In this document: piece after piece, positions 9,638 through 27,137 of the stretch
Position numbering within the stretch: the stretch's first letter is position 1
Layout of the letters: the number at the start of each line of letters is the position of its first letter
Assembly (NCBI RefSeq): GCF_030553055.1
Contig: NZ_CP130713.1
Span: 2,232,001-2,296,000 of the forward strand
DNA length: 64,000 nt
Direction: 5' to 3'
From: Streptomyces sp. XD-27
Lineage (GTDB): Bacteria > Actinomycetota > Actinomycetes > Streptomycetales > Streptomycetaceae
Translations under genes and position numbers: made by a program
The notes under the pieces: generated by a model
Databases searched by the model: none
Told to the model about the DNA's origin: nothing
What the model saw: only the letters and a program-made list of their open reading frames with translations

Positions 9638-9689
9638 GTGTGACGTACGGGTCTGCGTGTGACGAACGGGCCCCACGTGTGACGTACCG
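9638..9689. repeat. Three 13-bp direct repeats upstream of osmC
   Basis: GTGTGACGTACGG (9638), GTGTGACGAACGG (9657) and GTGTGACGTACCG (9677) are spaced 19 and 20 bp apart, close to two helical turns. They lie in the 102-bp gap between the thioredoxin 3' end and the osmC start, so they sit in the osmC leader or promoter. Could be a regulator-binding array. Confidence 0.6.
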
Positions 9690-9723
9690 CCGGGCCCATG
9701 TGCGGCGGACGGGCGACCGGCGT

Positions 9724-10122: not shown

Positions 10123-10225
10123 GCCTGACTGCCTGCTTCCCATCGGATCGGCGGTGCCCAGCTACGGTAACCAACCGTAGCCGGGCGGTATTCCTGCCGA
10201 CTCCGCGGTCACCTCCGATCCGCGG

Positions 10226-11470: not shown

Positions 11471-11709
11471 GGGGATCCTCACTGCATGGTGGCGCTGAGA
11501 CGGTCTCAACATGTCCTTGCTATCGACGAATGCGATCATCGGCATGGTCTGCTAGGCCATCCGGCCGCACCGGCCATGGAGTCGGCCGTCCGGGAATCGC
11601 CGCTGGTCCCGGCCGTAAACGCGGGCATTCGAGTGACCAGGCGTATCGGCGGACCGTACGAGTCGTTGGTCAGGCCCCGAGCCAAATGATCAGGGAAAGG
11701 ACACGACTC

Positions 11710-12156: not shown

Positions 12157-12191
12157 CGTTCTGCTCGGCCGACGCCGGGTTTTCCGTTCCT

Positions 12192-12246
12192 GGAGCCCCC
12201 GTTCATCGATCGATGGCATCGATGCGCGGGGGCTCCGCGCGTGTGC
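12192..12246. terminator. Bidirectional terminator hairpin between the chaplin-like gene and modBC
   Basis: GGAGCCCCCG (12192-12201) pairs perfectly with CGGGGGCTCC (12237-12246) between two convergent genes. The loop is long and itself contains ATCGAT palindromes. No clear U-tract, as is common in Streptomyces. Confidence 0.6.
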
Positions 12247-12258
12247 GGCGCGGTCCGG

Positions 12259-14225
12259 TCAGGTGGCCACCAGGGTGATCTCCGTGGCCTTCACGCCGGT
12301 CCAGACCGGCGTGCCCTCGGCCAGGCCGAGTTCCGCGGCGGCTCCCGGGGTGATCTCCGCGACGAGGTCCGGGATGTCCTCGAAGGCGACCAGCACGCGG
12401 AGCCTGCTGCCGACGGCGGTGATCTCCCGGATCGTTCCCGGCCAGGTGTTCCGCGGACTGCCCGTGAGGCGCTCCCGGTGCAGGGAGACCGCCTCCGGCG
12501 GGATGATCGCCAGCGCGGCCGTCCCGGTGGCCAGCGGCTCCGCGGCCACCAGACGCCCGCCGTGGCCGAGGGCGAGGCCGTCGGCAGTGGCCGTGCCCGG
12601 CCAGGCGTTGCGGCCGAGCATCCGGGCCACCCACGGCGACCGCGGATGGCGGGTGACCTCGGCGGGCACCGCGTCCTGGACCACGCGGCCGCCGTCGAGT
12701 ACGAGGATCCGGTCGGCGAGCGAGACGGCTTCCACCGGGTCGTGCGTGACGATCAGGCAGACACCGCCGAACCCCTTCAGATGGCCGCGCAGGGTGTGCC
12801 GTACGTGAGCGCGGGTGGTCTGGTCGAGGGCGGCCAGCGGTTCGTCCAGCAGCAACAGCCGCGGCCGGACGGCCAGCGCCCGGGCGAGCGCGACCCGCTG
12901 CGCCTGGCCGCCGGAGAGCTGCGCGGGCCGCCGGTCGGCGAGGTGCCCGACGCCGAGCCGGTCGAGCCACGCCTGCGCGCTGCGGCGGGCCTCGGCGCGC
13001 GGCACACCGCCGGCCCGCGGCCCGTACGCGGTGTTGGCCAGCGCGCTCAGGTGCGGGAAGAGCGCCCCGTCCTGGGGGACCCAGGCGACGCCGCGCCGGT
13101 GCGGCGGGAGCCGGGTGAGGTCCGCGTCGCCGAGCCGGATGTCGGCGTGGGCGCGGTCGGTGAGGCCGAGCAGGGCGCGCAGCAGGGTGGTCTTGCCCGC
13201 GCCGTTGGGGCCGACGACGGCGATGGTGGTGCCGGGCTCCGCGTCGAGCACGAACTGGAGGAAGCCGGTCAACTCGGCGCGGAGCGGCCGGCGCTGGGCC
13301 TGCTCCGCACCGGAGCCCGGCGGCGGGTCCGCCTCCGGCTCACGCGGCGCCGTGCCGAGCGGCGGGTCTCCGGCGGGCGCGGCGTCGTCCACGTCGGGGC
13401 GGCGGGCCGCGGGCGCGCCCATGGCCACCCCCGTGAACCGGCCGCGCAGCGCGACCAGGACGGCCATGGCGATCGCGAGCAGCAGCAGGGACACCGAGGT
13501 CGCCGCCTCGGGCTCCTGCTGGAGCAGCAGGTACACGTGGAGCGGAAGGGTCTGGGTGGCGCCGGGGAGGTTGCCCGCGAAGGTGATGGTGGCGCCGAAC
13601 TCGCCGAGCGCGCGGGCCCAGGTGAGCGCCGCCCCGGCGAGCAGGCCGGGGGCGACCATGGGGAGCGTGATGGTGCGGAACACCCGGAACGGCGCGGCGC
13701 CGAGCGAGGCCGCCGTCTCCTCGTAGGCGGGCCGCAGCCCGGCGAGGGTGCCTTCCAGGCTGATCACCAGGAACGGCATGGCGACGAACGTGGCGGCGAC
13801 GACGGCGCCGGAGGTGTGGAACGGCAGCGTGAGCCCGAAGGTCTCCTCCAGCCAGGGGCCGAGGATGCCGCGGCGGCCGAACCCGAGCAGCAGCGCGATG
13901 CCGCCGACGGTCGGCGGCAGCACCATCGGCAGCAGGACCAGGGAGCGTACGAGGGCCTTGCCGGGGAAGCGGACGCGGGCCAGCAGCCACGCGAGCGGCA
14001 CCCCCATCAGCAGGGACAGGACGAGCGCCCAGCAGGAGACGACGAGGGAGAGACGGAGGGCCTCGGTGACTTCCGGGCGGCCGAGGTGACCGGTCAGCTC
14101 CCCCACGACGTACGGCTGAGGACGCCGGCCAGCGGCAGCAGCAGGAACGCGATGGCGAGCAGCGCGGGGAGCGCGAGGACGACCGGGGCGCGCAGGCGCG
14201 GCGCCCCGGGACGGGTGCGTTTCAT
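12259..14225 (-). CDS. modBC: Molybdate ABC transporter permease-ATPase fusion ModBC (frameshifted near the 5' end as printed)
   Basis: Molybdate importer with inner-membrane permease and ATPase in one chain. From 14106 to 12259 an open frame of 615 residues has ModB helices, the EAA loop (ETAASLGAAPFRVFRTITLP), then a Walker A (GPNGAGKTT), signature LSGGQAQR, Walker B (LLLLDEPLAALD) and a C-terminal TOBE-like region. The natural start is ATG 14225 (AGGAAG upstream), which encodes 42 residues including the first transmembrane helix before a TGA at 14094. One extra base in the C run 14100-14104 joins the two frames into 655 residues (SRTSWG then ELTGHLG). Follows modA by 37 bp. Either a sequencing error or an N-truncated protein from GTG 14106. 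Confidence 0.85.
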
Positions 14226-14262
14226 GGGGCTTCCTGGTGCGGGGACGCTCACGCGCGGCGGG

Positions 14263-15066
14263 CTACGGCTTCTGGAACCCCGCGTCGCGCAGGATCTTCT
14301 GCGCCTCGGGGCCGCTGAGCCAGGTCACGAACGCCGCGGCGGCGTCCGCGTGCCGCGACTGCTTGAGGGCCGCCGCGGGGTAGGAGGCGATGGCGTTCTG
14401 GGCGTCGGGGATGGTGACGGGGTCGACCTTGTCGGTCGCGCTGCCGGCGTCGGTGGCGTACACCAGCCCGGCGTCGGCCTCGCCGAGCTCCACCTTGCTC
14501 AGTACGGCGCGCACGTTCGGCTCCTGCGAGACCGGCTTGACGTCGACCTTCTGGGCGTCGAGGACCTGCTTGCTGTAGCGGCCGACCGGCACCTCGGGGG
14601 CGGCGAGGACGACCTTGAGCTTGTCGTCCGCCAGGTCCTTCAAGCCGCCGATCTTGTGCGGGTTGCCCTCGCCGACGGCGATGACGAGGCGGTTCCTGGC
14701 GATGACGGTCGGCGTGCCGGTGTCGCCCCGCAAGCCCTCCATGGTGGTGGTGTCGGCGGTGACCAGGGCGTCGGCGGGGGCGCCCTGCCGCACCTGGGCG
14801 GCGAGTTCCTGGGAGCCGGCGAAGGAGAACGTCACCTTGGTGCCGTGGTGCTCCTCCTCGTACGCCGTGCCCGCGGTCTTGAAGACGTCGGTGAGGGAGG
14901 CGGCGGCGAGCACGGTCAGCTTGACCTTCTGGCCGCCGCCCTTGGTCCCGGCGTCGTTCTCGCCGCCCTTGTCGTCGTCGCTGCCGCAGGCCGTCGCGAG
15001 CGGGACGAGCAGCGCGGCGGTGAACAGGGCGGCCGCGGTGCGGCGACCGGTGAGCGTGCGGGACAT
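14263..15066 (-). CDS. modA: Molybdate ABC transporter substrate-binding lipoprotein ModA
   Basis: A 267-residue extracytoplasmic lipoprotein. The ATG at 15066 follows GAGGAG. Signal peptide with lipobox LATAC, Cys about residue 27. ModA hallmarks: LTVLAAASLTDVFK, FSFAGSQELAAQVRQGAPAD and DAGLVYATDA. Binds molybdate/tungstate and delivers it to ModBC encoded immediately downstream. Middle gene of a minus-strand operon beginning with the HTH-TOBE gene. Confidence 0.95.
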   Translation of the reverse strand: MSRTLTGRRTAAALFTAALLVPLATACGSDDDKGGENDAGTKGGGQKVKLTVLAAASLTDVFKTAGTAYEEEHHGTKVTFSFAGSQELAAQVRQGAPADALVTADTTTMEGLRGDTGTPTVIARNRLVIAVGEGNPHKIGGLKDLADDKLKVVLAAPEVPVGRYSKQVLDAQKVDVKPVSQEPNVRAVLSKVELGEADAGLVYATDAGSATDKVDPVTIPDAQNAIASYPAAALKQSRHADAAAAFVTWLSGPEAQKILRDAGFQKP

Positions 15067-15139
15067 GGGGATGTCTCCTCGGGGAAGAGGCGGGGACTGG
15101 GCAGGGGGACAGTGCGGTGCCGAAGAGCGCCGAGGAGGC

Positions 15140-15534
15140 TCAGGTGCGGTCGATGTGCACGCTGGTGGACTTCACGCGGGCGGTGGCCCGCATGCCGATC
15201 TCCAGGCCGAGTTCCTCGACCGCCTCCCGGGTGAGCAGGGAGACCAGCCGGTGCGGTCCGGCCTGGATCTCCACCTGGGCCGCGACGTCGCCGAGCTTGA
15301 TGGCGGTGACGATGCCGGAGAAGGCGTTACGGGCCGAGGTGTACGGCGCCTCGTCCTCCCCGGGCCGCTCTGGGCCAGCTCCACGGAGAAGGCAGCCAGG
15401 TCACGGCCGTCGATGAGGCGGCGGCCGGACTCGTCGCGATGGGTCGCGACCCTGCCTGCGTCGGCCCAGCGGCGGGCGGTGTCGGGGCTGACGCCCAGCA
15501 GGCGCGCCGCCTGGCCGATGGTGTACTGCTGCAT
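15140..15534 (-). CDS. HTH-TOBE molybdate-responsive regulator (frameshifted as printed)
   Basis: N-terminal MerR/excisionase-type HTH (YTIGQAARLLGVSPDTARRW, then GRRLIDGRDLAAFSVELA) followed, in another frame, by one TOBE domain (SARNAFSGIVTAIKLGDVAA to ARVKSTSVHIDRT). The shift lies at the short C/G run 15358-15365; one added base joins GPG to EDEAPYTS, giving 131 residues. This architecture is common in actinobacteria directly upstream of modA and is thought to sense molybdate through TOBE. The start at 15534 is chosen at the conserved MQQYTIGQ; an ATG at 15555 is possible. As printed, translation would run out of frame to 15172. Confidence 0.78.
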
Positions 15535-15704
15535 GTGCGGCACGATAGGAGTCATGCCCTGGCATCTACAACTCTCTGGGCGCTTCTTCGTCGCATGTGC
15601 CAGGCCCATAAGAGGAAGCTCCAAGGCGCGAGCGCGTCGCCGCGCGAGGCGGGAAACGGAGCAATCTACGCCTAACGGCTATATCGCCTGGTTACAGTGC
15701 GGAC

Positions 15705-16124
15705 ATGGCTCTGAGCATCCGCAACCAGCTCGCCGGAACCGTCACCGCCGTCACGCCCGGCGCCGCGATGGCGACCGTGACGGTGCGCCTCGCGGGTGGG
15801 CAGGAGATCACCGCGGCGGTGACCCGCGAGGCCGTGGAGGACCTCGGGGTCGTGCCGGACACGCCGGTGCGCGTCCTGGTGAAGTCGACCGAGGTGTCGC
15901 TGGCCACCGGCCCCGTCGCCGGGCTGAGCATCCGCAACCGGATTCCGGGCACGGTCGCCGGGGTCACCGCCGGCGACGCCATGGCGACCGTGAAGGTCGC
16001 GGTCGACGGCGGCGAGCTGACGGCCGCCGTCACCCATGACGCCGTCGGTGACCTCGGCCTCACCGCCGGCTCGCCGGTCGTGGCGCTGATCAAGTCGACC
16101 GAGGTCGCGCTGGCCACCGCGTGA
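15705..16124 (+). CDS. Di-Mop molybdenum-pterin/molybdate-binding protein (molbindin)
   Basis: A 139-residue cytoplasmic protein made of two tandem Mop/TOBE repeats: residues 1-68 (LSIRNQLAGTVTAVTPGAAM to VLVKSTEVSLAT) and 72-139 (LSIRNRIPGTVAGVTAGDAM to ALIKSTEVALAT). Such proteins store or buffer molybdate. Divergent from the HTH-TOBE/modABC operon, so probably co-regulated. The ATG lies 15-25 bases after TATATC/TTACAGT promoter-like sequence with no clear Shine-Dalgarno, so it may be nearly leaderless. It is unaffected by the frameshifts in the neighbouring operon. Confidence 0.92.
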   Translation: MALSIRNQLAGTVTAVTPGAAMATVTVRLAGGQEITAAVTREAVEDLGVVPDTPVRVLVKSTEVSLATGPVAGLSIRNRIPGTVAGVTAGDAMATVKVAVDGGELTAAVTHDAVGDLGLTAGSPVVALIKSTEVALATA

Positions 16125-16182
16125 GCCCGCCGCGCGACGCGGGGGCTGTCCCGTCCCAGGGACAGCCCCCGCTGCCGCGCCG

Positions 16183-16674
16183 TCAGGGACAGTCGCGCCC
16201 CTCATCGGGCTTGACGCATACGTCGGCGTCGGGGCCGCCGTCGTGGAAGTTCGTGCCCGGGCCGCCGTCGAGACGGTCCCTCCCCGCGCCCCCGAAGAGG
16301 CTGTCGTCGCCCTCGCCGCCGCGCAGTTCGTCGTCGCCGTCGCCACCCCACAGGGAGTCGTTGTCGCGACCGCCGTCGATCCTGTCACCGCCCTCCTCGC
16401 CGGAGAGATCGTCGGCGCCCGCACCGCCGCAGACGCGGTCGTCGCCGCCGCGGCCGTTGACGACGTCGGCACCGTCACCGGCGATGATGACGTCCGGCCC
16501 CGGCGTGCCGGTGATCCTGTCGTTTCCGGATGTTCCGGTGATCGTCGCCGGCCGGCCGAAGCACAACGCGGCGGCCGGGTCGACGGCGGTCGGCCCGGCC
16601 ATGGCCGTCTGCGCGGCTCCACCAGCCGTCACCAGCAACCCGAGAACTGCCCCGACCACAAGACTGCGACGCAT
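16183..16674 (-). CDS. Secreted RTX-type calcium-binding repeat protein
   Basis: A 163-residue secreted protein. The ATG at 16674 follows GAGGAG. Signal peptide residues 1-27. The rest is RTX nonapeptide repeats (GTSGNDRITGTPGPDVIIAG, then GGxGxDxLxG units such as GGDGDDELRGGEGDDSLFGG), predicted to form a Ca2+-filled parallel beta roll. No catalytic domain, so a small stand-alone beta roll. The C-terminal DADVCVKPDEGRDCP and an N-terminal Cys suggest a disulfide-capped roll. Four 11-bp tandem repeats lie just upstream. Confidence 0.88.
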   Translation of the reverse strand: MRRSLVVGAVLGLLVTAGGAAQTAMAGPTAVDPAAALCFGRPATITGTSGNDRITGTPGPDVIIAGDGADVVNGRGGDDRVCGGAGADDLSGEEGGDRIDGGRDNDSLWGGDGDDELRGGEGDDSLFGGAGRDRLDGGPGTNFHDGGPDADVCVKPDEGRDCP

Positions 16675-16685
16675 CGACCGCTCCT

Positions 16686-16729
16686 CTCTTCCCTGGCTCT
16701 TCCCTGGCTCTTCTGTGGCTCTTCTCCGA
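16686..16729. repeat. Four 11-bp tandem repeats upstream of the RTX gene
   Basis: CTCTTCCCTGG, CTCTTCCCTGG, CTCTTCTGTGG and CTCTTCTCCGA are head-to-tail at 16686-16729, beginning about 10 bases upstream of the RTX gene start. On the coding strand they are purine-rich and would sit in the leader. Confidence 0.65.
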
Positions 16730-16752
16730 ACCCCCTCGGTCAAGTCCTCCAC

Positions 16753-17022
16753 GGCTGCGGGCGCGGGGCTTCCTTTGGTACGCCGTCCGGGTGTGCCCGC
16801 GCAGCGCTCTCAGCTCCTGCGGCGGCGAGGCCCACGCCGCGGCCGTAGCCCCCGGCGACCGTCGGTGCGCGCCCAGCTGGGTGATTCATGTGTCCGCGTC
16901 GAGTGCGCGTGAACGCGCCGCCGGGGGTTCAACGCGTCTTGTCGTTAACGTCCAGGAGGGCCGACCGTAGGCGCCCAGCCTTGTCAGTGCTTGTCCGCGC
17001 GTGAAACAGGAGCTGATCGTTC
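16753..17022. other. Intergenic region, about 270 bp
   Basis: Divergent promoters for the RTX and Cys-rich genes must lie here, with the RTX leader repeats at its left edge. GTTAACGTCCAGGAGG near 16954-16969 is relatively AT-rich. No further gene seen. Confidence 0.4.
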
Positions 17023-17256
17023 ATGGCCGTGTGCGAGGTCTGCAACAACGACTACGAGATGGCGTTCGAGGTGCGCGCCGCGGGAGCCGTCCACATCTTC
17101 GACAGCATCGAGTGCGCCGCCCAGAGGATGGCGCCGATCTGCGGGAACTGCCAGTGCCGCATCCTCGGTCACGGCCTTGAGGCCGGCGGAGACTTCTTCT
17201 GCTGCGCGCACTGCGCGCGCGAGAAGGGATTCGCGCAACTCGTGGACCACGCCTGA
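17023..17256 (+). CDS. Cys-rich metallothionein-like small protein
   Basis: A 77-residue protein with nine Cys (positions 4, 7, 31, 40, 43, 45, 60, 61, 64) arranged as CxxC, CxxCxC and CCxxC, plus several His. The ATG at 17023 follows CAGGAG. Conserved actinobacterial proteins starting MAVCEVC are annotated by some as prokaryotic metallothioneins; zinc-ribbon or treble-clef metal binding is equally possible. Probably cytoplasmic. Monocistronic. Its stop codon sits inside an 8-bp tandem repeat. Confidence 0.72.
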   Translation: MAVCEVCNNDYEMAFEVRAAGAVHIFDSIECAAQRMAPICGNCQCRILGHGLEAGGDFFCCAHCAREKGFAQLVDHA

Positions 17257-17282
17257 ACGCCTGAACGCCTGGATGCCTGGAT
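17251..17282. repeat. 8-bp tandem repeat spanning a stop codon
   Basis: GCCTGAAC twice, then GCCTGGAT twice. The first unit contains the TGA stop of the Cys-rich gene. Looks like slippage duplication of the gene's 3' end. Confidence 0.7.
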
Positions 17283-17284
17283 GC

Positions 17285-17908
17285 TCAGCCGCCGGCTGCC
17301 ACGGCCGCGCCGAGCGCCAGCAGCACGGCGCCGGTGGCGATGCTCAGGCCTCGGCGGACAGCAGGCCGGGACACCAGCGCGCGGCCTCGCCCGACGCCCC
17401 AGGTGAACAGGAAGTACCAGCAGACGTTGACCAGCGCCCAGACCACGCCCAGAGCGATGCTCGACGCAAGGACAGGGCCCTCGGACGTGACGAACTGGGG
17501 CAGCACCGAGATCGCGAACACCCCCGCCTTGGGGTTGCCCAGGGTCGTGCCGAGCCCGGCCAGATACGCCCCCCGGAAACCGGGTCGGCGCTCCTCGGTG
17601 TCATCCGCCGACGCCTCCGCGGTCGTGCGGGCCGTCCTGAGCGTGTTGATCCCGAGGATGGCCAGCACGATGCCGCCCGCGATCCGTACGGCCGCGTACG
17701 CATGAGGATTGGTCAGAAGGACGGCGGACAGCCCCGCGGCGGCGGCAGTGGACCAGATCAGCAGCCCCGTGGCGTTGCCTGCGATCGTGGGCCGGGCGAG
17801 ACGGGGCCCACCGGTCAGGGTCTGCCGCACCATGAGCGCCTGTCCGGCTCCCGGGAGCATCGCCAGCAGCCAGGTGGTGATCAGGAAAACGGGCAGGTGG
17901 GTGGGCAC
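17285..17908 (-). CDS. LysE family amino-acid exporter
   Basis: A 207-residue inner-membrane exporter with about six hydrophobic segments. GTG at 17908 is chosen because GAGGAAGG precedes it and the first transmembrane helix starts immediately. The LysE/RhtB motif is altered but recognisable (LLAMLPGAGQALMVRQTLTG near residue 15; NPKAGVFAISVLPQFV near residue 123). Exports amino acids or related metabolites. Divergent from a LysR regulator with a palindrome in between, as in lysE/lysG-type pairs. Confidence 0.88.
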   Translation of the reverse strand: MPTHLPVFLITTWLLAMLPGAGQALMVRQTLTGGPRLARPTIAGNATGLLIWSTAAAAGLSAVLLTNPHAYAAVRIAGGIVLAILGINTLRTARTTAEASADDTEERRPGFRGAYLAGLGTTLGNPKAGVFAISVLPQFVTSEGPVLASSIALGVVWALVNVCWYFLFTWGVGRGRALVSRPAVRRGLSIATGAVLLALGAAVAAGG

Positions 17909-18006
17909 GTCGAGGCCTTCCTCAGATATGGCTGACTCATCCGTGGCTTGCTCACCCAGGCTTGTACAGACGGATGCTTCAGAGAAGCGGAGGGCCGACT
18001 CGTACA

Positions 18007-18026
18007 GCATTAAGATTATTGAATGC
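18007..18026. promoter_or_regulatory. Imperfect palindrome at the LysR start, probable LysR-type site
   Basis: GCATTAAGATTATTGAATGC: outer arms GCATT/AATGC match, AT-rich centre. It overlaps the ATG of the LysR gene (18023) and lies 99 bp upstream of the LysE start. Fits an autoregulatory LysR site. Confidence 0.45.
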
Positions 18027-18964
18027 CTGCCGCCGCTGATCCTGGACAGCTCCGCCTGCTGGCGTTGATCGAACGCCACGGCTCCCTCGCGGCGACCGCC
18101 CAGGCCCTCGGGCTCACACCGGCGGCGGTGACGCAGCAGGTGGCCCGAGCGGAGCGGGACTGCAAGGTGCCGCTGGTCGTTCGCGGCCCGCGCGGCGCGA
18201 CGCTCACCGCCGCCGGCGCCCTCTTGGCCGCCCACGGACGCGTCATCGACCAGCAGGCAGAGGAAGCCGCCGCCAGGCTGGCCGCACTCCTCGGCCGCCT
18301 TTCGCTGCGCTTGCGGGTCGGAGCCTTCCAGGCTGCAGCCCTCCATCTGCTTCCGCCCGCGCTGACCGCTCTACGGCACCGCCACCCGGACGCGGACCTG
18401 TCGGTCGTGGACCTGCCGTCCCAGTGGGGTATCGACCAGGTGACCGACGGAGTGCTCGACCTGACGGTCATCGCCTCCTGGGAGACACCCCCCGACCCGC
18501 CCCCGCACGTCGCGGTACACCCGCTCATGGTGGACCCCATGGTGGTGGTCCTACCGGACGACCACCCGCTGGCCGAGGAAACGCCCGACGGCACCCCGCT
18601 GCGCCTGGAAGACCTGCGCGACGAGTCATGGGTGACCATCCTGGCCGGTCACGCCGCCCGAGAGCAGTTCGACCGGGCGGCGGGGGCCGCCGGCTTCACT
18701 CCCAGGGTCCGGTTCCAGACCGCCTCGTACGACGTCGCCCAGGCCCTGGTCGGCACCGGAATCGGCGTCGCCCTGGTCTCGCGGCTGGCCTTGACGCGGG
18801 TCCCCGGCACCACCCACCGCGAGCTCGTCGACCCACGGCCCGCTCGCCGACTCCACGCGGTGACCCTGGCCGACGCCACCCTCACCCCCCTGGTGGACGT
18901 CTTCCTCGGACTCCTGCGCGACGTCGCCGAGGACATCACCGCCACCTGGACCATGCCGCGGTGA
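18023..18964 (+). CDS. LysR family transcriptional regulator
   Basis: A 313-residue LTTR. HTH at residues 8-65 (LLALIERHGSLAATAQALGL then TPAAVTQQVARAE); the C-terminal effector-binding fold ends near residue 300. DLTVIASWE and VGTGIGVALVSRL are the usual effector-domain strands. Start ATG 18023, no strong ribosome site visible. Divergently transcribed from the LysE exporter, its likely target; the co-inducer would be the exported amino acid (inference). Confidence 0.9.
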   Translation: MPAAADPGQLRLLALIERHGSLAATAQALGLTPAAVTQQVARAERDCKVPLVVRGPRGATLTAAGALLAAHGRVIDQQAEEAAARLAALLGRLSLRLRVGAFQAAALHLLPPALTALRHRHPDADLSVVDLPSQWGIDQVTDGVLDLTVIASWETPPDPPPHVAVHPLMVDPMVVVLPDDHPLAEETPDGTPLRLEDLRDESWVTILAGHAAREQFDRAAGAAGFTPRVRFQTASYDVAQALVGTGIGVALVSRLALTRVPGTTHRELVDPRPARRLHAVTLADATLTPLVDVFLGLLRDVAEDITATWTMPR

Positions 18965-19033
18965 CGACGCGGCCCCGGAGCCCGCGGGGCCGTTGTCGAC
19001 GACAGCGGCGCGCCGGGCGGTGATGGCCCAGCC

Positions 19034-19312
19034 CTACTCGCAACGGATGACGGGAGGACCCTGGGGAGTGTGCGCCTGAGCGGCAACGTATTCGTCGAGG
19101 AGACCGCGCATGATGCGCGCGTCCTCGGGCAGGGTCGCCTCGAAGGCGGACCATCCTGTGAACGTCAGGTCGCGGGGCAACTCCACCAGACCGGTGATCG
19201 CATCCCAGAAGGCGTCCCAGTTCATTCCATAGAAATCGGGGAACCCCAACTCCTGCTTGAGCAGTACATGGAGGTGCCGGACCGTGGTGACGCCGGCCAA
19301 GTCGATGACCAT
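19034..19312 (-). CDS. Barstar family protein, orphan
   Basis: A 92-residue barstar-fold protein (MVIDLAGVTTVRHLHVLLKQ; GFPDFYGMNWDAFWDAITGL; LPRDLTFTGW). The GFPxFYGxNWDAFWD segment is the family hallmark and includes residues that bind barnase-type RNases. No barnase-like gene is adjacent. It lies just outside the left end of the 19.44-27.06 kb island. Could be a solitary immunity protein or a housekeeping barstar-like protein; Streptomyces carry several. The start at 19312 has only a weak ribosome-binding sequence. Confidence 0.85.
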   Translation of the reverse strand: MVIDLAGVTTVRHLHVLLKQELGFPDFYGMNWDAFWDAITGLVELPRDLTFTGWSAFEATLPEDARIMRGLLDEYVAAQAHTPQGPPVIRCE

Positions 19313-19440
19313 CGCACCAGTCTCGCAGCAATCGCCGGTTACGTGCCCAGCGGGATCGGAGGGGGGCCGCCACGCGATGTGCGGCGGCCCCCTCCGATCC
19401 GATCCCGCTGGCCAGGACGTTCTCATCGAACGCCCGCGCG

Positions 19441-19463
19441 GTGGGGCGGGTGGGACTCGAACC
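19441..19463 (-). repeat. Left attachment-site copy of the tRNA 3' end (att)
   Basis: 23 bases identical to 27063-27085, the 3' end of the CAU-anticodon tRNA gene (T-loop, T-stem and acceptor 3' strand). Identity stops abruptly on both sides, and no matching acceptor 5' strand follows, so this is not a functional tRNA. Same strand and order as expected for the displaced half of a tRNA-integrated element. Confidence 0.75.
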
Positions 19464-19786
19464 TCATTCGGTGACCCATCTCGCCTGCCGGAGAGACCGG
19501 CTCTGCCCGTAGCTACACACGGTAGTCAGTGGACGAGACAGTCGCTGGCTCCCTGTGCGCGCCAGTGCCCCGTGCCGATCAAGGTGTCGTCTTGTGCGTC
19601 GTGTACGGCGAACCCATGGGAACAGGCGGCAGACGCAGGCCCTGCGAGTCGGTGACCGCCGCAGCGACCACGGCCGACAAGGAGCTCATGAGCCGCGGCG
19701 CCCAAGCGGGCCGGGCCGGGGCGAACACCGGCGGCGGCTGGGTGCTCCGCGTCCCGGGCAGCCTACGCACCCCGCTGCTGCGTCCC
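19464..19786. other. Left end of island, 323 bp, no confident gene
   Basis: No coding region I would defend. A 36-codon minus-strand open frame at 19579-19689 has no recognisable features. Short inverted repeat CCGGAGAGACCGG at 19489-19501. The stretch may be integrase-region debris. Confidence 0.4.
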
Positions 19787-20520
19787 TCAGGACTCGTAGC
19801 CCTCGATCAGACGGCTGATGACCCGGTGCAGGACGTCCGCGCGGCGCCGGTCGTCCCGCTGGTCGCGCAGGGCGCGGTCGGTCGCCCAGAGCTTGCGCCA
19901 GGCGTCCGCGTCCTAGTCCATCACCTCGTCGACGAGCGACGAGGAGACCAGGTCCAGGCACTCGGCCAGCCGGAGCCGGGTGGTGTGAGAGGGCGGGGTG
20001 ACTTCGGGGTCGGCGAAACCGCCCGTCAGATACCGCGCGGGATCGGTGAGACTCCAGCCGACCACCGCGACTTCCTCTACCAGGAGGTCCACCTCAGGGG
20101 CGATGCCGATCCGCGCGTCCAGCGGCCCGTCGAGTGCGCCGAGCTCCCGGAAGCACCTCAACTCGGCGGCTTCGGGGGTGCAGCAGAAAGGACCGTGGTC
20201 TGGGGCAGGGCGAATTCCGCCGCGGTATCCGCGCGCAGCCCGTCCCGAAGGGGCCGCGGCCCGTCGGGCAGACGGTGGCAGACCTGCGCGGGAACGGACT
20301 CCGGGGGCATGTAGAACGTGGCGCCGACCAGCTCCCGCCTATCCAGGTCGAACCGGGCCTCGTCGGTTTCCGACCATAGCCACTGCATGCTGCCAAAGGT
20401 GGCCCCCAGCAACCGCCCGCACCCCTCCGAGTCCGTGTATTCCGCGACGATCACCTGAGGGCCGGTGATGTCGAAGCGGGGCGTGACCTTAAGCGGATTG
20501 CCCGTCGTCTCGGCGCTCAT
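19787..20520 (-). pseudogene. Hypothetical island gene with a frameshift and an in-frame amber stop
   Basis: Reads MSAETTGNPLKVTPRFDITG from ATG 20520 and continues for about 120 residues. The frame then breaks at the G5 run 20174-20178 (C5 on the coding strand); one added base joins TVLSAAPP to EAAELRCFRELGALDG. The restored frame runs to TAG at 19913 (LVDEVMD-stop) and, past that amber codon, stays open for 41 more codons (DADAWRKLWATDRALRDQRD to GYES). Full length would be about 244 codons. Family unrecognised; soluble and acidic, so an additional immunity-type protein is possible. Confidence 0.55.
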
Positions 20521-20562
20521 GACTGCACTCTGCGGCCGCAGCAGTGACGAAGGGACCGTTCG

Positions 20563-20991
20563 TCAGTGAAGCCTGAGTGCATCCACTGCCTTTTGGACCT
20601 CGTCAGCCCTGTATCCCGTTCGATAGTAAAGTTCCTTTTCGCCGAATGCCGATTGCGCGAATAGCAGCAGCGATGGCCATTCGCGAGCAATTCGTTCGGG
20701 GATTTCAAACGAGACGGCCGCCTGATTACCTTCTGCTGCATATACACTCACGGCAGTTCGCGGTTCAGGTTCACCATCCTTCGCAGTTCGAATGACTGCG
20801 CCACTGGAGCCCGCCAAGCGGGCGCCGCGGAGTACTGCTCTGGCGGATCTGATTTCCGAGAGCAAGATGCCCAGATCCTCAGGGCTACATCCACGCTCCA
20901 GCAAGCTAGACTCTTCCAGTTCATATAGCTGCACAGTGACCTGGAAAACCGTCGCAAACTCTTCCGAGGTTAGCGTAATCTGCCACTTCAC
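20563..20991 (-). CDS. Putative immunity protein of the RHS toxin
   Basis: A 142-residue small acidic soluble protein of unrecognised family. GTG at 20991 is chosen because GGGAGG precedes it at good spacing, and it begins 22 bases after the toxin stop codon. That position, directly 3' of an RHS toxin and on the same strand, is where cognate immunity genes of polymorphic toxins are found. Features seen: KWQITLTSEEFATVFQVTVQ at the N-terminus, VSVYAAEGNQAAVSFEIPER in the middle, YYRTGYRADEVQKAVDALRL at the end. G+C is lower than in neighbouring genes. Function is inferred from position only. Confidence 0.7.
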   Translation of the reverse strand: MKWQITLTSEEFATVFQVTVQLYELEESSLLERGCSPEDLGILLSEIRSARAVLRGARLAGSSGAVIRTAKDGEPEPRTAVSVYAAEGNQAAVSFEIPERIAREWPSLLLFAQSAFGEKELYYRTGYRADEVQKAVDALRLH

Positions 20992-21013
20992 CTGGACCGC
21001 CTCCCGACTTCCC

Positions 21014-24000
21014 CTACTCGAGCTCGTGATCGAAATAATACTTTCCACCCTTGGGTGTGAAGACGGTGCCACCATCTCCGTCCTCGATCACAACTGCACC
21101 CTTATCAGGGTCCCAATAGCCGACTCGCCCATTTCTGAGGCCGTACCTTATATCAACGTTGGGGACGTCTCCGTTGATTACGCCATCGACGTAATGCGCA
21201 AGCGCCTTGTCGTCAACACCGCGTACGAAGTGGGTTCCGTTCCCATCCGGCCGTCGTGCTGATTCCAATGCATGGTCTGCGATATTCTTAGAGATTTCGT
21301 CTGGCTCGTCACATGATTGCAATCCACAAGCATCGAACCACGTGAACGGGTTTACGACATATGAGTACGTATTAGGTGCAGGACGGAGACCCAGAGGATC
21401 GTGGCTGACGTAGCGCGCGGTTTCGGGGTCGTAGTGGCGGAAGTAGTTGTAGTTTAGACCCGTTTCTGGGTCGGCATATTGGCCGGGGAAGCGGAGTGGG
21501 CAGTCCACCGCGTCCGCCGGGGCAGGCAAAGTCGTGCCCCAGAGGGTCGTGCGGCGTCGCCAGGCCACGTCGCCGGTGGGCGAGACCAGGTCAGTCGGGG
21601 TGCCGACGAGATCGGTGACGATGGCATGGAAACGCGCATCCACCTCCGCCATCGAAAGGTTTGCAGCACGGAGGATTGCGCTTGCTCCCGGATCCACCTC
21701 CCCTGACGTGTGGCGCGACGTCTGGGTCAGCGGCCGGTGCGTCCCCGGCATGTAGTCCCAGGACATAGTCTCGTCGTCCAGCGTGGTCTGTTCGGCCAGG
21801 CGTGCGCCGTCCCACGTGAACCGGACTTGCTCCCGCACCATGCCGTCATCCGCTACGAGGCGCTTGGTCATCCGGCGACCCAGCGGGTCGTACGTGTACC
21901 GCCATAGGGCGCCGTCCGGGGTGACGACCTCCGTGAGGCGGTCGTCTGTGTTCCATCGGTAGGTCCAGGTGCGCTGCTGGCCGTTCAGCAGGCGGCGGGT
22001 GCGGCGAGTCAGGCGCCCCTGCGTGTCGTGCTCGTATGTCGTGCGGCCGGCGCGCCGGATCAGGGTACCGGTGAATTCGCGTTGGCCAGAGGAGGGGTGG
22101 GCTGGGGCACTGGCCTTCGTGAGGTTGCCCGCGGTGTCGTACGTGTACGTCTCCGTCCAGCCGTGCGCGTGCACGGCTGTGGCTCTGCCGACCGGGTCGA
22201 GGTCGAAGCGGCGGGTGCCGGAGGTGAGCTCGCGGATCTCCGTGAGGTGGTCGTCCGCTCGGTAGGCGTACTCGCGGTGCTGAAGCAGCGTCCTCGCCAC
22301 CGCCGACTGCAGGCCGACGGTCTGGCTGGTCAAACGAGCCAGTTCGTCCCAAGTCTGGGTCAGCGTCACGGGCTCACCCAGTGTCCTCGACGTCTCACGT
22401 CCCGCCGCGTCGTAGGTGAAGGCAAGTTCGTTGCCCGCTGTGGTGAGCGAGGTCGGGCGGTCCGCCGCGTCGTAGGTCCACGTTGACGTCAGGCCGGTCG
22501 GGGTCGTGCGGCTCGTGCAGTGGCCCGCCGCGTCGTAGGTGTAGGTCGTGGTGTGGGCGTTGACCGTTTCCTTCAGCAGGCGGCCCACCGCGTCGTACTC
22601 GCGGGTCAGGTCCGTGTCCGCGTTGGTCGCCCATATCAGGCGGCCCACCGCGTCGTACGCGAAGTGTGTCTCCTCGCCTTCTTCCGTCCGCTGCGCCATT
22701 GTCCGGCCCAGCTCATCGTGTTCGAAGTGGACGGTCTCGCCTGCGCCGTTGGTCCGCGATACGAGCCGGCCCGCCGCATCGTGGGCGTACGTCAGAGTGC
22801 GGCCATTGAAGTCTGTCTCGGAGATCAGGCAGCCTGCCGCGTCGTATGCGTAGCGCCACTCCAACCCCTGCGGATTCGTGACCGCCGTCAGCCGCGATTC
22901 CGTGTCGTAGGTGAACGCGTACATGGCGCCGTCCGGCTCCGTGCGCGTAGCCAGACGATCGAAGTGCGTGTAGGAGTGCCGTGTGGTGTTGCCTGCCGGA
23001 TCGGTGTGTTCGCGGAGGTTGCCTTCCGGGTCCCAGGTCCACGACTCCCTACTGCCATCCGGGCGTATCCGCCACGACGGCTTACCCTCGACCGTCCACC
23101 TGTGGCGGGTGACGTGGCCCAGCGGGTCGGTGACGCGGGTGATACGGCCATGCGTACCCCTACGGAAGTTGGTGGTATTGCCCAGAGGATCGGTGATCTC
23201 GACTGGCAGGCCCGCGGCGTTGGCCGTGATGTGGGTGGTGTGCCCCCGTGCGTCGGTGATGGACGTCAGGTTGCCGCACTCGTCGTAGACATAGCGAGTC
23301 TCGGCGCCCGTTGGGCTGGTGGTGCTGGTGCGGTTGCCTCGCTGGTCGTAGGTGTGGCGCCACACCGCACCGTCCGGTTCCCATACCTCTGTGGGAAGCC
23401 CCAGCTCGTTGTAGACGGCGCTCGCCGCGGTGCCATCGGGGCGGTCGACGCGGAGGAGCCGGTCGAGGTCGTCGTAGAGGTAGCGGGTGGTGCGGCCGAG
23501 GGGGTCGGTGACGGCTGCCGGGAAGCGGCCCGGCTGCGGGCCCCAGTCAGTATGTGTGGTGTGGCCCAGGGCGTCGGCCCGCGAGATGACCTTCGATGCT
23601 TCGTTGTAGACGTACCGCGTGCGGTTGCCCAGAGAGTCGGTGTAGGTGGTGGTACGGGCCGCTTCGTCGTACTGGAAGCGCCCCGACAGCATGTTGCCGG
23701 AACCGACGGTGTGCGTGACGCGCCCGCGCCTGTCGTAGAAATAGCCGAAGCGGGTGCCGTTGCGGTCTGTCCACGACGTCATTCGGTGTTCGGCGTCGTA
23801 GGTGAAGCGCAGCGGCGTGCCTGTGGAGTTGACGACTTCGGTGAGGTCGCCGGCCGCGTTGTATCGGTAGGCGACCAGCGTGGTACCGGTCTCAGTGTCG
23901 CCGACGCCGAGGAGGCGGAGGGCGGTGATGCGCAGCAGTGCCGGGTCGGTGTCGATCGCGATGCGGTAGCCGCCGGAGTGGCTGATCTGGGCCGGTGCGC

Positions 24001-25444
24001 CGTCCGGGCCGTAGGAGATGTCGATCCGGCGGCCGTTGCGGTCGGTGATGGCCTGGAGTGGGAGTTCGGTAGCGGGTACGTCCGGCAGCGGGGCGAAGTG
24101 CAGGCTACGTCCGTGCTCGGGGATGGTGATGGTTATCGGCCCGCCGGCCTCGCCGTCCCAGCGCAGTGGCCAGCGGGGGCCGCGGTCAGGGAGGGTGTCC
24201 TCCTCAGGCTGTGGGATGGGGTAGGTGAGGAGCATGCCGTCGTCGGCGACGAAGACGATCCCGTCTGCGTCCAGTTCCAGGCGCTGGTCGAGGGTGGCTG
24301 CCCAGGTGCGGCCGAACCAGCCGCCGCAGGTGTGGCTGGAGACGAAGGTGCGTTCCAGGACGAGGGGGAGGCCGCCCGGCAGTTGGACGTCCGTGGCGGA
24401 CATTGTCATCTCTCCGGTGATGACGTCGACCGGTTCGCCGTCGCACGTCTTCTCGGGACCGCACTGGTCCTGGGTGCCGTCGCGCTCTGCCCGGTCGCGG
24501 TTGTCGCCGCGGCTGAGCGCGTCCTTGCGAGCCTTCAGGCGGTCGGCCGCGTCCCTTGATGCCTTCGCGACGTTGCGCAATGCGCTTCCGCCACCTGTCG
24601 CCAGAGCCAGGAGCACCGCAGGAGTCAACTGGCCCGCCGCGCGCTGCGGGTTGCTCGACCACTCCTCCCAGTTGGCGACGGCCTTGGCGAACTCGGTCGG
24701 GTGCTCGATGGCGTATTTGCCGCCGTCGAAGATCCCGGCCAGTTTCATGGCCGCGCCCTTGGGATCGAGCGTGAGGAACGGCTCGGCGAAGTCGGCGATG
24801 TCGAGGATGCCGCTATGCGCTCCCCAGAGGAAGTCCTTGACACCCTGCTTGGTCTTCTCAAAGCCGCTCGGCTTGTCCGGAGCCTTCTCCGCCGCCTGGT
24901 CGATCTTCTTCTTCGACGCCTTGACCACAAAGTCGAGCTCGAAGGTCAGCCCGTCCAGACGACGCTGGCAGTTCTCCATGGCGGTGATGCCCGGATTGGT
25001 CTCCGCGGGCCGCTCGGGGAGCGAGTCGTCCCCGCGCTTGACCGCGTCGTTGTATGCCTGGACCTTCTTCTCGTGGCTCGCCGCGGTCTTCCTGGCCTCG
25101 GCCGCGTCCTCGATGATCGGTTTGCAGCGCTTTTGGACGCCGCGCAGTTTGGTGGCGTACGCGGCCAGAGCGGAGGCGGCGTTGGCGAACTGGGTGTGCG
25201 CGGAGGAGAGTTCCTTCGGAAGCCGGTCGACCGCGGCACGGAACGCGCTCTCCCCCTTCCCTGACCACCGGTACAGCTTCAGTGGGCCCAGCTTGTCGTG
25301 GCCGTCGTTGAAGGCGGCGGCGTAGGCGCGCAGATCCGCCACCAGGTCGTCGATCTTGTCCGGATCACCTGGAATCAGGTCCTTGGGCGTGGCGCCTTCG
25401 GGGATGCCGGTCCGTGCCGGGGTCCGCGCGTCAGGATCTCCCAT
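21014..25444 (-). CDS. RHS/YD-repeat polymorphic toxin with WXG/T7SS-like N-terminus
   Basis: A 1476-residue protein. Residues 1-230 are helical without a Sec signal (IDDLVADLRAYAAAFNDGHD; LYRWSGKGESAFRAAVDRLP) and resemble the WXG-type secretion domain of actinobacterial RHS proteins. A DUF6531-like segment begins near residue 333 (CDGEPVDVITGEM). YD repeats fill about 500-1200 (many YDAAGR units). The RHS core ends with FPGQYADPETGLNYNYFRHY near 1320 and DPLGLRPAPNTYSYVVNP near 1355. The last 95-100 residues, from about 1378, form the variable toxin tip (NGTHFVRGVDD; NGRVGYWDPDKGAVVIEDG; GGTVFTPKGGKYYF), not assigned with confidence; an RNase activity is a guess. The start lies 3 bases after the previous stop, so translation is coupled. 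The cage is expected to be intact. Confidence 0.92.
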   Translation of the reverse strand: MGDPDARTPARTGIPEGATPKDLIPGDPDKIDDLVADLRAYAAAFNDGHDKLGPLKLYRWSGKGESAFRAAVDRLPKELSSAHTQFANAASALAAYATKLRGVQKRCKPIIEDAAEARKTAASHEKKVQAYNDAVKRGDDSLPERPAETNPGITAMENCQRRLDGLTFELDFVVKASKKKIDQAAEKAPDKPSGFEKTKQGVKDFLWGAHSGILDIADFAEPFLTLDPKGAAMKLAGIFDGGKYAIEHPTEFAKAVANWEEWSSNPQRAAGQLTPAVLLALATGGGSALRNVAKASRDAADRLKARKDALSRGDNRDRAERDGTQDQCGPEKTCDGEPVDVITGEMTMSATDVQLPGGLPLVLERTFVSSHTCGGWFGRTWAATLDQRLELDADGIVFVADDGMLLTYPIPQPEEDTLPDRGPRWPLRWDGEAGGPITITIPEHGRSLHFAPLPDVPATELPLQAITDRNGRRIDISYGPDGAPAQISHSGGYRIAIDTDPALLRITALRLLGVGDTETGTTLVAYRYNAAGDLTEVVNSTGTPLRFTYDAEHRMTSWTDRNGTRFGYFYDRRGRVTHTVGSGNMLSGRFQYDEAARTTTYTDSLGNRTRYVYNEASKVISRADALGHTTHTDWGPQPGRFPAAVTDPLGRTTRYLYDDLDRLLRVDRPDGTAASAVYNELGLPTEVWEPDGAVWRHTYDQRGNRTSTTSPTGAETRYVYDECGNLTSITDARGHTTHITANAAGLPVEITDPLGNTTNFRRGTHGRITRVTDPLGHVTRHRWTVEGKPSWRIRPDGSRESWTWDPEGNLREHTDPAGNTTRHSYTHFDRLATRTEPDGAMYAFTYDTESRLTAVTNPQGLEWRYAYDAAGCLISETDFNGRTLTYAHDAAGRLVSRTNGAGETVHFEHDELGRTMAQRTEEGEETHFAYDAVGRLIWATNADTDLTREYDAVGRLLKETVNAHTTTYTYDAAGHCTSRTTPTGLTSTWTYDAADRPTSLTTAGNELAFTYDAAGRETSRTLGEPVTLTQTWDELARLTSQTVGLQSAVARTLLQHREYAYRADDHLTEIRELTSGTRRFDLDPVGRATAVHAHGWTETYTYDTAGNLTKASAPAHPSSGQREFTGTLIRRAGRTTYEHDTQGRLTRRTRRLLNGQQRTWTYRWNTDDRLTEVVTPDGALWRYTYDPLGRRMTKRLVADDGMVREQVRFTWDGARLAEQTTLDDETMSWDYMPGTHRPLTQTSRHTSGEVDPGASAILRAANLSMAEVDARFHAIVTDLVGTPTDLVSPTGDVAWRRRTTLWGTTLPAPADAVDCPLRFPGQYADPETGLNYNYFRHYDPETARYVSHDPLGLRPAPNTYSYVVNPFTWFDACGLQSCDEPDEISKNIADHALESARRPDGNGTHFVRGVDDKALAHYVDGVINGDVPNVDIRYGLRNGRVGYWDPDKGAVVIEDGDGGTVFTPKGGKYYFDHELE

Positions 25445-25447
25445 GGC

Positions 25448-25936
25448 TCAGGACTCGTCCTCGTAGTCGACGTACTTGTTCGCGAACCTCTCCAGACCCG
25501 ACTCCTTGTAGGGCTCCATCTCCGGTACGCCGATGTGCTCCGCCACCCACTGCGTCGAAGGGCCGGAGGGCAGCCTGGAGATGTTCTCGTCGGACGGCCA
25601 GAAATTCTTGATCTGGAGCAGTTCCGCCAGCGTGTACGCCGCCACGGCCTGGTACAGCCGCTCCACGACCTCGTCCGCGTGCTGGGACAGCTGCCCCATG
25701 CCGTATCCCCAGGAGGACAGGAAGCCCTTGCCGGATTCCAGGATCTCGGGGGAGCCGCAGTGCTGGATGTCGGCCGTCAGTTTCTCCTTGTCCTTCACCA
25801 TCGCCTTCGCCGCCACGACAGACTCCTCCAGCGGCGCGATCAGCCCCTTCACATCGGCAATCTCGATCGCATACCCGTCGGATCCATCGATCGTGCCCGG
25901 CTCGGGAGCAGTAGGCGCACGGTTATGCTCCGCCAT
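25448..25936 (-). CDS. WXG-like accessory protein of the RHS toxin operon
   Basis: A 162-residue helical soluble protein. ATG 25936, with AGGGGG upstream, overlaps the end of the preceding gene by 14 bases. Sequence includes IEIADVKGLIAPLEESVVAA and KDKEKLTADIQHCGSPEILE, followed by SWGYGMGQLSQHADEVVERL, a helix-turn-helix hairpin style typical of ESX/T7SS-related proteins, although no exact WXG motif is present. Encoded 3 bases upstream of the RHS toxin, it is most likely a secretion adaptor or chaperone for it. Function is inferred from position and helical character. Confidence 0.65.
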   Translation of the reverse strand: MAEHNRAPTAPEPGTIDGSDGYAIEIADVKGLIAPLEESVVAAKAMVKDKEKLTADIQHCGSPEILESGKGFLSSWGYGMGQLSQHADEVVERLYQAVAAYTLAELLQIKNFWPSDENISRLPSGPSTQWVAEHIGVPEMEPYKESGLERFANKYVDYEDES

Positions 25937-26285
25937 CGCTGGAACCCCCTGGCACCTCACTCAGCACGTCGGTGTCCAGCAGAAACGGCTGCTCGCCATA
26001 CGGGTCCACCAGGGCTCGCACACCATCTGGCAGCAACTCCACCAGGTCCTCAGCAGTGGTCGACGCCCAGCCGCAGACACCCGCGAACTTAGCGAGGCCC
26101 TCGACCGACGTGAAAACAGGCACCAAGCGCCCAATCTCCGTCTCGGAGACCAGGAAACCGGGCTCCTCGGGCCGCTCGAAATAGAGCCGCAGGCCCCGCA
26201 GCGCCGTCGCCTTCTCCGCATCCGACATAGAGGCGACCGCTTCACGACGCACGCACTCAGCCAGCGTCAACCGACCACCGGTCAC
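25923..26285 (-). CDS. SseB-like N-terminal domain protein
   Basis: A 120-residue acidic protein. GTG at 26285 (or 26288) is chosen because GGGGGAG lies just upstream; no ATG start fits better. Its core, LVPVFTSVEGLAKFAGVCGW followed by LPDGVRALVDPYGEQPFLLD, looks like the SseB/enhanced-serine-sensitivity fold common in actinobacterial genes around ESX and RHS loci. First gene of a translationally coupled four-gene operon (SseB-like, WXG-like, RHS toxin, putative immunity). Domain assignment by eye. Confidence 0.62.
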   Translation of the reverse strand: MTGGRLTLAECVRREAVASMSDAEKATALRGLRLYFERPEEPGFLVSETEIGRLVPVFTSVEGLAKFAGVCGWASTTAEDLVELLPDGVRALVDPYGEQPFLLDTDVLSEVPGGSSDGGA

Positions 26286-27062
26286 CACACCGCTCCCCCG
26301 CCCCCGAACGCGCGCATCATCCTCACACGTAGTTGCGGGCCGTCGCAACGAGTACAAGCGAAGCCCTTCGCCAACCGGAGCATGACCCTCGCCACGAAAC
26401 TGTACGTGCGCAGCCGCCACACCAGCAGAGCGCGCACCCCAGCGCAGCCGGCGCTGCCCGTAACGGTGCCTGCTGGCCACCGGTTGCAGCGGCTTTCACC
26501 GGCGCCATCAGACATGCGTAAGCGGGCAACAACCCGTGAGACGTGAGCCCGCCGGCTGCGGCTCCTGCCGCTGACGCCGGCGGAACAAGCCATAGACCGT
26601 CCAGCCAGGGCGCCTCGGGCCGCGCGCCCACTACCGGATCCCATCGATCAGCTTTCGCGGCGAGGCCACTGGCGCGACACCCTGCGAGCCGTGCCCCCCG
26701 CAGGGCCGTTTCCTGCTCGGGCCGTTTTGATCGGGCCCTGTCGCCGCAGTACCAGACATACGCTACGTCGAACACTTCCAGCACGCCGCCCACACCACCA
26801 CAGGACCGAGCGCTCGGGCCTCCCGCGGACCTTTTCGGTACCCCGCGTCCTGCCAGCGTCCCGAATACCGCTGCCCCGCCCGTCAGACAGGCACCTGCCG
26901 TGGCTCTCGCCGACCGCGCCTCGGTGCATCCGCGCAGGTCACGACCCATCAACCGCAGACTGCCCCGGCGCCGAGGTCGCGAGCAGCGGATTCAGTCCAT
27001 TGGGCCGAAGCCCTCGAACCGAACCCTCATTGAGGCATTTCCGCAGGTCAGAGACCTGCCGA
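26286..27062. other. Right end of island, about 780 bp without a confident gene
   Basis: Open frames here are low-complexity and overlap on both strands. None has a recognisable domain or ribosome-binding sequence. A CGTAGTTGCGGGCCGTCGCAACGA-type inverted repeat (GTTGCG/CGCAAC) lies near 26334-26351. This must contain the promoter for the toxin operon and may hold remains of an integration module. Confidence 0.45.
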
Positions 27063-27085
27063 GTGGGGCGGGTGGGACTCGAACC
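27063..27085 (-). repeat. Right attachment-site copy (3' end of the tRNA gene)
   Basis: The 23-base partner of the repeat at 19441, inside the 3' end of the tRNA gene. Integrases commonly use this T-arm/acceptor segment as the crossover core and leave the tRNA intact. Confidence 0.75.
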
Positions 27086-27137
27086 CACGGCCGACGGATT
27101 ATGAGTCCGCTGCTCTAACCGGCTGAGCTACCGCCCC
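27064..27137 (-). tRNA. tRNA with CAU anticodon (Met or lysidine-modified Ile2)
   Basis: Complete 74-nt cloverleaf without encoded CCA. Acceptor GGGGCGG pairs with CCGCCCC; D arm GCTCAGCCGGTTAGAGC; anticodon stem GGACT with loop CTCATAA; T arm GTGGGTTCGAGTCCCAC. Elongator Met and Ile2 cannot be told apart by anticodon alone; initiator is unlikely because the acceptor 1-72 pair is G-C. Confidence 0.93.

Follow-up and report, generated by a model that had tools for sequence, protein, structure and literature searches.

Positions 19,441 to 27,085 of the 64,000-nucleotide stretch of the Streptomyces sp. XD-27 genome analyzed here (contig NZ_CP130713.1, positions 2,232,001 to 2,296,000; the whole stretch is called the window, and its first letter is position 1) probably form an element similar to the cis-mobilizable elements (CIMEs): a 7.6-kb island at a tRNA gene with a CAU anticodon, without an integrase of its own and moved by one encoded elsewhere, with an RHS toxin as cargo. 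An exact 23-mer, GTGGGGCGGGTGGGACTCGAACC, lies at both ends of this island, and since the tRNA is encoded on the minus strand the interval falls on its 3′ side, as insertion predicts. The original prediction, made from the letters of the window, had described this duplication at the 3′ end of the tRNA in an insertion-like orientation, and both copies were verified. It had also proposed looking for the 23-mer elsewhere, and the 7.55-Mb genome holds just these two copies (21 of 23 bases, at most two mismatches); at up to three mismatches there is no third copy in the window, where 100 shuffles gave a mean of 0. Insertion at the tRNA 3′ end is further supported, as far as sequence comparison goes, by the outer flank of the distal copy, by the ends of the element and by stacked junctions behind the same tRNA.

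A tyrosine integrase domain (PF00589, E ≤ 0.001) is absent from the island, in a scan that did not extend to serine recombinases; integrase fragments were not found there either, nor were transfer families among the genes scanned. The genome has 12 PF00589 matches, the nearest about 121 kb from the island. The earlier statement that no integrase is present agrees with these scans, and the view of the island as either decayed or passive is supported by the lack of a tyrosine integrase domain or pieces of one. As in a CIME, both attL and attR are retained, with a right end of mixed type. The gene set of an actinomycete integrative and conjugative element (AICE), namely integrase, replication and transfer genes, was not encountered in the island, traB and replication genes not having been searched for by profile. 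The G+C content is 66.5% in the interval against 71.8% in the window, and is lowest, at 55.8%, in the immunity gene described below.

T-arm sequences are common to many tRNAs, which could favor a different origin of the distal 23-mer, as a remnant left by the duplication or decay of a tRNA gene and never an attachment site. We consider such a relic very improbable: the genome has only the two copies, their identity ends at base 23, and the next 40 bases match the element ends of other genomes at a fixed spacing.

The outer flank and the ends of the island

The flanks were compared with 113 loci of this tRNA (sets L033-L066 and L115-L194, 114 loci in all, less L193, which has no full tRNA); these are not 113 independent genomes, because the sets overlap in at least three records. 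The last 40 bases of the outer flank share a mean of 14.0 identities with these loci in a fixed register, compared with a mean of 10.7 (sd 1.0, largest 14.75) for 300 random positions and 9.6 for the proximal flank in the same test. For local alignments, the mean of the 20 best scores was equalled by 1 of 399 random positions and the single best score by 14 of 399. A G+C-rich hairpin in this flank lies at the same distance as in several relatives. Whether the flank is native DNA or the end of an older element, it would in either case once have abutted the tRNA.

The 40 bases of the left end were compared, at equal offset, with L167, L176 and L054. Their mean identity was equalled at 0 of 2000 random window positions, and their mean local alignment score at 10 of 2000. 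Judged against the left ends of the element family described below, 0 of 300 random positions did as well as the window left end, and for the innermost 18 bases of the right end, judged against the family right ends, 1 of 300 did. The right end also matches L036, L149 and L151 at the same offset.

Table 1. Positions of the island, its ends and its genes in the window.
Feature	Position	Strand	Basis or remark
Outer flank of distal copy	19331-19440		Type abutting this tRNA in relatives; hairpin at about 19357-19399
Distal core copy	19441-19463		Exact 23-mer
Left element end	19464-19503	plus	TCTCGCCTGC at 19479-19488, 15 bases after the core
Decayed orphan immunity gene, in two frames	19790-20523	minus	tblastn, 58% over 116 aa and 72% over 138 aa
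Presumed cognate immunity protein, 142 aa	20563-20991	minus	GTG start at 20991; no Pfam family
C-terminal toxin domain, predicted BECR fold	21017-21331	minus	18 homologues; AlphaFold2 pLDDT 86.8
RHS polymorphic toxin, 1476 aa	21014-25444	minus	T7SS_signal, DUF6531, RHS repeats, C-terminal toxin; Pfam, NCBIfam
162-aa protein, predicted helical hairpin, WXG-like	25448-25936	minus	AlphaFold2 pLDDT 67
SseB-domain protein	25923-26288	minus	Start uncertain; PF07179, 25.1 bits (cut-off 21)
Right element end	26965-27062	plus	Innermost GCATTTCCGCAGGTCAGA at 27035-27052, common to the family
Proximal core copy	27063-27085		Exact 23-mer; 3′ end of the CAU tRNA
tRNA, CAU anticodon, integration target	27063-27137	minus	ARAGORN; Rfam RF00005, 75.5 bits

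A family of elements stacked behind the same tRNA

The CAU tRNA is accompanied by tRNA-Asn genes at 27315 and 27393 (ARAGORN, Rfam), and the flank of the tRNA is an integration hotspot. In 9 of the 113 loci, whose left flanks are about 2 to 19.5 kb long, so that more distant repeats are missed, 20 bp or more of the tRNA 3′ end occurs a second time; in 17, a tyrosine integrase or a fragment of one lies on the plus strand within about 1.3 kb of the tRNA. The core copies fall into at least two classes, one of about 46 bp that reaches to the anticodon loop and one of 23-25 bp (T arm), and the window has the latter.

The conserved end behind the short core can be searched for directly. The pattern TGGGACTCGAACC-N15-TCTCRCCTGC, with at most two mismatches, has 49 sites in 34 of 281 genomes (our own included), compared with a single match for the reversed control; these genomes overlap those of our other searches, including the ones for barstar-side and LysE-LysR DNA. 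Although the pattern does not require it, the acceptor part of the CAU tRNA stands in front of it in 28 of the 30 loci inspected, our own among them. At the other two (L266 and L267, from genomes G008 and G072) the conserved element end follows the T arm of another tRNA, as though the family had switched its target.

Eleven stretches were read further, of which ten reach the tRNA-CAU/Asn/Asn locus and six hold at least two cores besides the tRNA itself. With at most three mismatches, 25 cores are on the strand of the tRNA and 1 is on the other; this sole exception is in the G228 stretch (L290-L293). Genome G081 holds six cores within 42 kb. Taking the intervals between consecutive cores in these chosen stretches, which are no random sample, delimits 27 elements of 1.9 to 130 kb. 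Their ends are alike and their middles are not: pairs of 240-bp pieces reach a median local score of 66 when taken from left ends, 44 from right ends and 19 from the middles. ACCTGC in left ends and GCAGGT in right ends form an inverted pair, longer in L054, L167 and G124, that would suit the arm sites of an integrase.

Some features of the right end weigh against placing the window island wholly in this family. The outer mark, AGCAGCGGATT at 26982, 81 bp from the tRNA, is of another subtype, which stands 82-83 bp from the tRNA in L036, L144, L149, L151, L174, L182 and L185, and L036 and L151 have cores of the 46-bp class. The mark is found in 0 of the 26 other elements of the 23-bp-core family, in none of the 120-base stretches that precede the junction at 30 loci with the 23-bp core, and in neither L273 nor L278. 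Because this mark, present at loci with 46-bp cores, is absent from those elements and loci, the island may be a composite remnant, in which at least two stacked elements of different core classes were fused by deletion and two of them supplied the ends while one supplied the RHS operon. The left end would then be of the 23-bp class and the outer right end of the subtype that accompanies 46-bp cores in L036 and L151, and stacks from which such a fusion could arise do occur at this tRNA. However, the innermost 18 bases of the right end agree with the right ends of the family, and at L144, L149, L174, L182 and L185 the outer subtype lies at the tRNA with no known distal core, so that its class is not fixed. 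We regard a composite origin as conceivable but rather doubtful. In the same region, GAGCAGCGGATTCAGTCCATTGGGCC at 26981-27006, some 81 bp away from the 3′ end of the tRNA, resembles part of the anticodon arm of this tRNA (GAGCAGCGGACTCATAATCCGTCGGCC) copied in inverted orientation.

Integrases, conjugative relatives and cargo

Integrases were sought in the 27 elements with a profile built from the integrases found at this tRNA, which may miss distant ones, and genes of the relatives were taken from a simple G+C-based caller that misses some. By this profile 22 of the 27 have no tyrosine integrase. A match was obtained in the other five: G023_3, G025_2, G175_1 (truncated), L176 (decayed) and G292_2 (weak); G068_1, where tblastn finds a 44-aa fragment, was left out of the count. 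The integrase at this locus, here named IntT, is a tyrosine integrase of 430-440 aa (PF00589, E 3e-17). In G025 and G023 its reading frame is uninterrupted and lies no more than about 50 bp from the tRNA, and truncated or fragmentary copies occur in G175 (two), G068 and L122. The next core lies at a distance of 88 kb in G025, with the left end of the family, and of 130 kb in G023, where the left end is shorter by one base. The two elements have long blocks in common, and that of G025 encodes a MobF/TrwC relaxase, a TraG/VirD4-type coupling protein and a VirB4-like ATPase. With its integrase and conjugation genes, this 88-kb element is a possible helper. It also carries lantibiotic-type dehydratase genes (L307:1847-7286), a bacteriocin cargo. 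In the G012 element (L052:17512-19083) the integrase frame runs into the tRNA gene, and the C-terminus is thus encoded by the attachment site.

Such integrases could also be taken to mean that the window island is an ordinary AICE, integrative and conjugative element (ICE) or prophage-like island that lost its own integrase and transfer genes, with the RHS operon as cargo and no traffic by helpers. The plus-strand integrases or fragments beside the tRNA in the 17 loci fit this history, as do the decayed integrases of L176, L122, G175 and G068. No piece of an integrase was found in the window island, however, and the elements without one by profile include toxin-antitoxin elements of 1.9 and 2.3 kb. 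We think an ordinary decayed island unlikely and continue to favor a CIME-like element moved by an integrase encoded outside it.

The cargo of the family is mixed. A 1.88-kb element carries a YoeB/YefM pair and a 2.28-kb element a pair of helix-turn-helix and PIN proteins (HTH/PIN). The HTH/PIN pair is found in L167 as well, 94% identical over 1.47 kb, but the tRNA flanks of the two hosts are themselves 90-94% alike, so that this identity is no proof of transfer. Long RHS frames occur in five of the 27 elements (the window, L054, G081_4, G292_2 and, with a weaker match, G023_3), and among the 58 proteins scanned of 71 that can be referenced there are also transposases, transporters and metabolic enzymes. 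Within about 19 kb of the tRNA, 34 relatives gave 2 DUF6531 matches where about 0.2 would be expected (86 matches in 36 genomes); we claim no enrichment of RHS genes near the tRNA.

The RHS toxin operon

The coordinates of the operon agree with the four genes described earlier: the gene of the SseB-domain protein ends at 25923 and overlaps the second gene (25936-25448) by 14 bp, 3 bases separate the latter from the RHS gene, and 22 bases separate the RHS gene from the GTG of the immunity gene. The SseB-domain protein scores 26.6 bits against NF033532, below the cut-off of 85. The 162-aa protein has no family above cut-off; its two-helix model matches EsxA in a fold search, among many unrelated helical hairpins. 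The RHS toxin has a T7SS_signal domain (PF21725, 84.5 bits, cut-off 27), and the genome has two EccC matches above the curated cut-off along with further weaker ones. From this domain we infer that the toxin is probably exported by a type VII secretion system (T7SS).

Neither the toxin tip nor the immunity protein has a Pfam match above cut-off, the tip has none in NCBIfam, and a sequence search of the PDB with the toxin profile returned chance-level rows only. The model of the tip matches the structures of colicin D and of a contact-dependent inhibition (CDI) toxin, and a His, an Arg and a Thr are among its invariant residues, including Thr89 in the fourth strand. Judged by this model, the tip is most likely a BECR nuclease that cleaves RNA or tRNA. 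A homologue of the 142-aa immunity protein directly follows the toxin in 5 of 5 loci with a close toxin and in 0 of 5 with a distant one; the immunity protein thus goes with the tip, with a putative neutralizing role. In the distant branch (L201-L204, 30-34% identity) the toxin is followed by another frame, unlike the window immunity protein.

The same SseB-WXG-RHS front carries 11 types of tip in 14 operons, and the tip of the window is also found on another scaffold, a pattern that indicates tip swapping. The kin of the decayed orphan gene is a presumed immunity gene behind another SseB-WXG-RHS toxin (G079, L253). Three further DUF6531-RHS matches lie at 2.98-3.00 Mb in the same genome. A derivation of the island RHS gene from these was rejected: identity is 47-50%, in the longest alignments of the RHS core, and tblastn at 2.98-3.00 Mb found no match to the SseB, WXG-like, toxin-tip or immunity proteins.

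The operon had been proposed to be a portable weapon cassette. That the SseB-WXG-RHS front recurs in other Streptomyces speaks for portability, but not as one unit with the tRNA site, for no tRNA was seen in the 1.9-3.5 kb fetched around each of 29 other copies. The operon and the tRNA element therefore look like separate units joined here.

A proposed mechanism

We propose that the element entered at the 23-bp core, a segment of the tRNA-CAU gene made up of acceptor and T arm, by means of a tyrosine integrase encoded outside it. The core is duplicated at both ends, and for that reason the tRNA stays whole. The island would belong with the family that has this core and conserved ends and stacks behind this tRNA in other Streptomyces, and the large members with an integrase beside the tRNA and with conjugation genes would be the likely movers of the small ones, whether in trans or in cis. 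The tip of the RHS toxin would be restrained by the 142-aa immunity protein; an older tip was probably swapped out, with its immunity gene left to decay. The repeat, the ends, the stacks, the lack of a tyrosine integrase, the swapping of tips and the pairing of toxin and immunity protein are seen in the sequence, and the inferred parts of this account are the mobilization, the T7SS export and the RNase activity.

A wider proposal, which we put forward as speculation and hold with limited confidence, is that the tRNA-CAU/Asn/Asn locus is a genus-wide platform resembling superintegrons as these are generally known. The integrase of resident conjugative elements would capture passive cassettes of about 1.9 kb and more, some of them with a toxin-antitoxin pair or a polymorphic toxin, and stack them at the 23-bp core of the tRNA. 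Species would in this way trade weapons and antidotes on cassettes that have no mobility genes themselves. Should the helper model be true, a single tRNA gene would serve Streptomyces as a trading post for toxin-antitoxin pairs and polymorphic toxins in cassette form; since the 23-bp core is defined, the ends are conserved and there is a candidate integrase, the capture of cassettes outside integrons would become directly testable.

Relation to known systems

Published accounts allow several comparisons. CIMEs are described as keeping attL and attR after the loss of integration and transfer genes, and as stacking at their target (PMC5704250). The window island is similar in that it keeps both att copies, has no integrase that we found and belongs to a stacking family, but the elements described here go down to 1.9 kb, have conserved ends and unrelated cargo, extend across a genus and are putatively mobile. 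The AICE/DAICE accretion at a tRNA-Arg in Streptomyces (PMC9513070) likewise places at a single tRNA several elements that share identical direct repeats; the tRNA is another and the elements are AICEs or defective AICEs, defined by traB, whereas here traB was not searched for and 22 of 27 have no detectable tyrosine integrase. An AICE at a tRNA-Met, Faln5456, is also on record (PMC3218068). Among the Dehalococcoides islands at ssrA, 16 of 31 carry an integration module (PMC3146451); there too a single RNA gene has received numerous islands of varied cargo, in another lineage and at another target.

Polymorphic toxins with RHS repeats and T7SS-type trafficking have been described with the same succession of trafficking domain, RHS shell, exchangeable C-terminal toxin and adjacent immunity gene (PMC3482391); the difference is that the tip and immunity protein of the window lack a Pfam match above cut-off. 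The predicted tip shares two N-terminal helices and a four-stranded sheet with colicin D (1v74, 5znm) and the CDI toxin of E. coli O32:H37 (8ey4), but identity is 11-16% and the catalytic residues are not matched one to one. The pair adds a toxin-immunity family that so far has no Pfam name and is predicted to attack RNA.

Taken alone, the window island is a further CIME-like tRNA island carrying a polymorphic toxin, a kind already known. Seen beside its relatives, it suggests a variant that deserves a name: cassettes with conserved ends, most of them without an integrase, that are stacked at one tRNA and that the conjugative relatives could move. We found no publication on integrase-less cassettes at the Streptomyces tRNA-CAU in a partial coverage of the literature, which is weak evidence of novelty.

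Search for an empty site

The named relatives of the window DNA are Streptomyces. To the right of the tRNAs, a 95-aa protein has a best match of 77%, in a search from which near-identical records may have been left out. To the left, the barstar protein has a match in 19 of 37 genomes including our own, and by coordinates none of the 18 others has it beside the tRNA. Barstar-side DNA has a match in 84 of 392 genomes at E ≤ 0.001, mostly over short stretches, with no CAU tRNA in the 29 loci fetched from that search (L068-L096), and the LysE-LysR DNA is present in 16 of the 392 at E ≤ 1e-60. No syntenic copy with the barstar protein, the barstar-side DNA or the LysE-LysR DNA was found among the genomes searched, and no empty site was seen, there being no close relative among them. 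To the left of the tRNA, few of the 34 relatives show DNA synteny, which resumes near window positions 9200-10140 (L033, L034, L035 and L066, with a short match in L051). The interval from this last syntenic gene to the island, 10200-19440, is likewise patchy among relatives. Just outside the distal repeat, at 19034-19426 and in the orientation of the operon, lies the barstar-family gene itself, which may be another orphan immunity gene.

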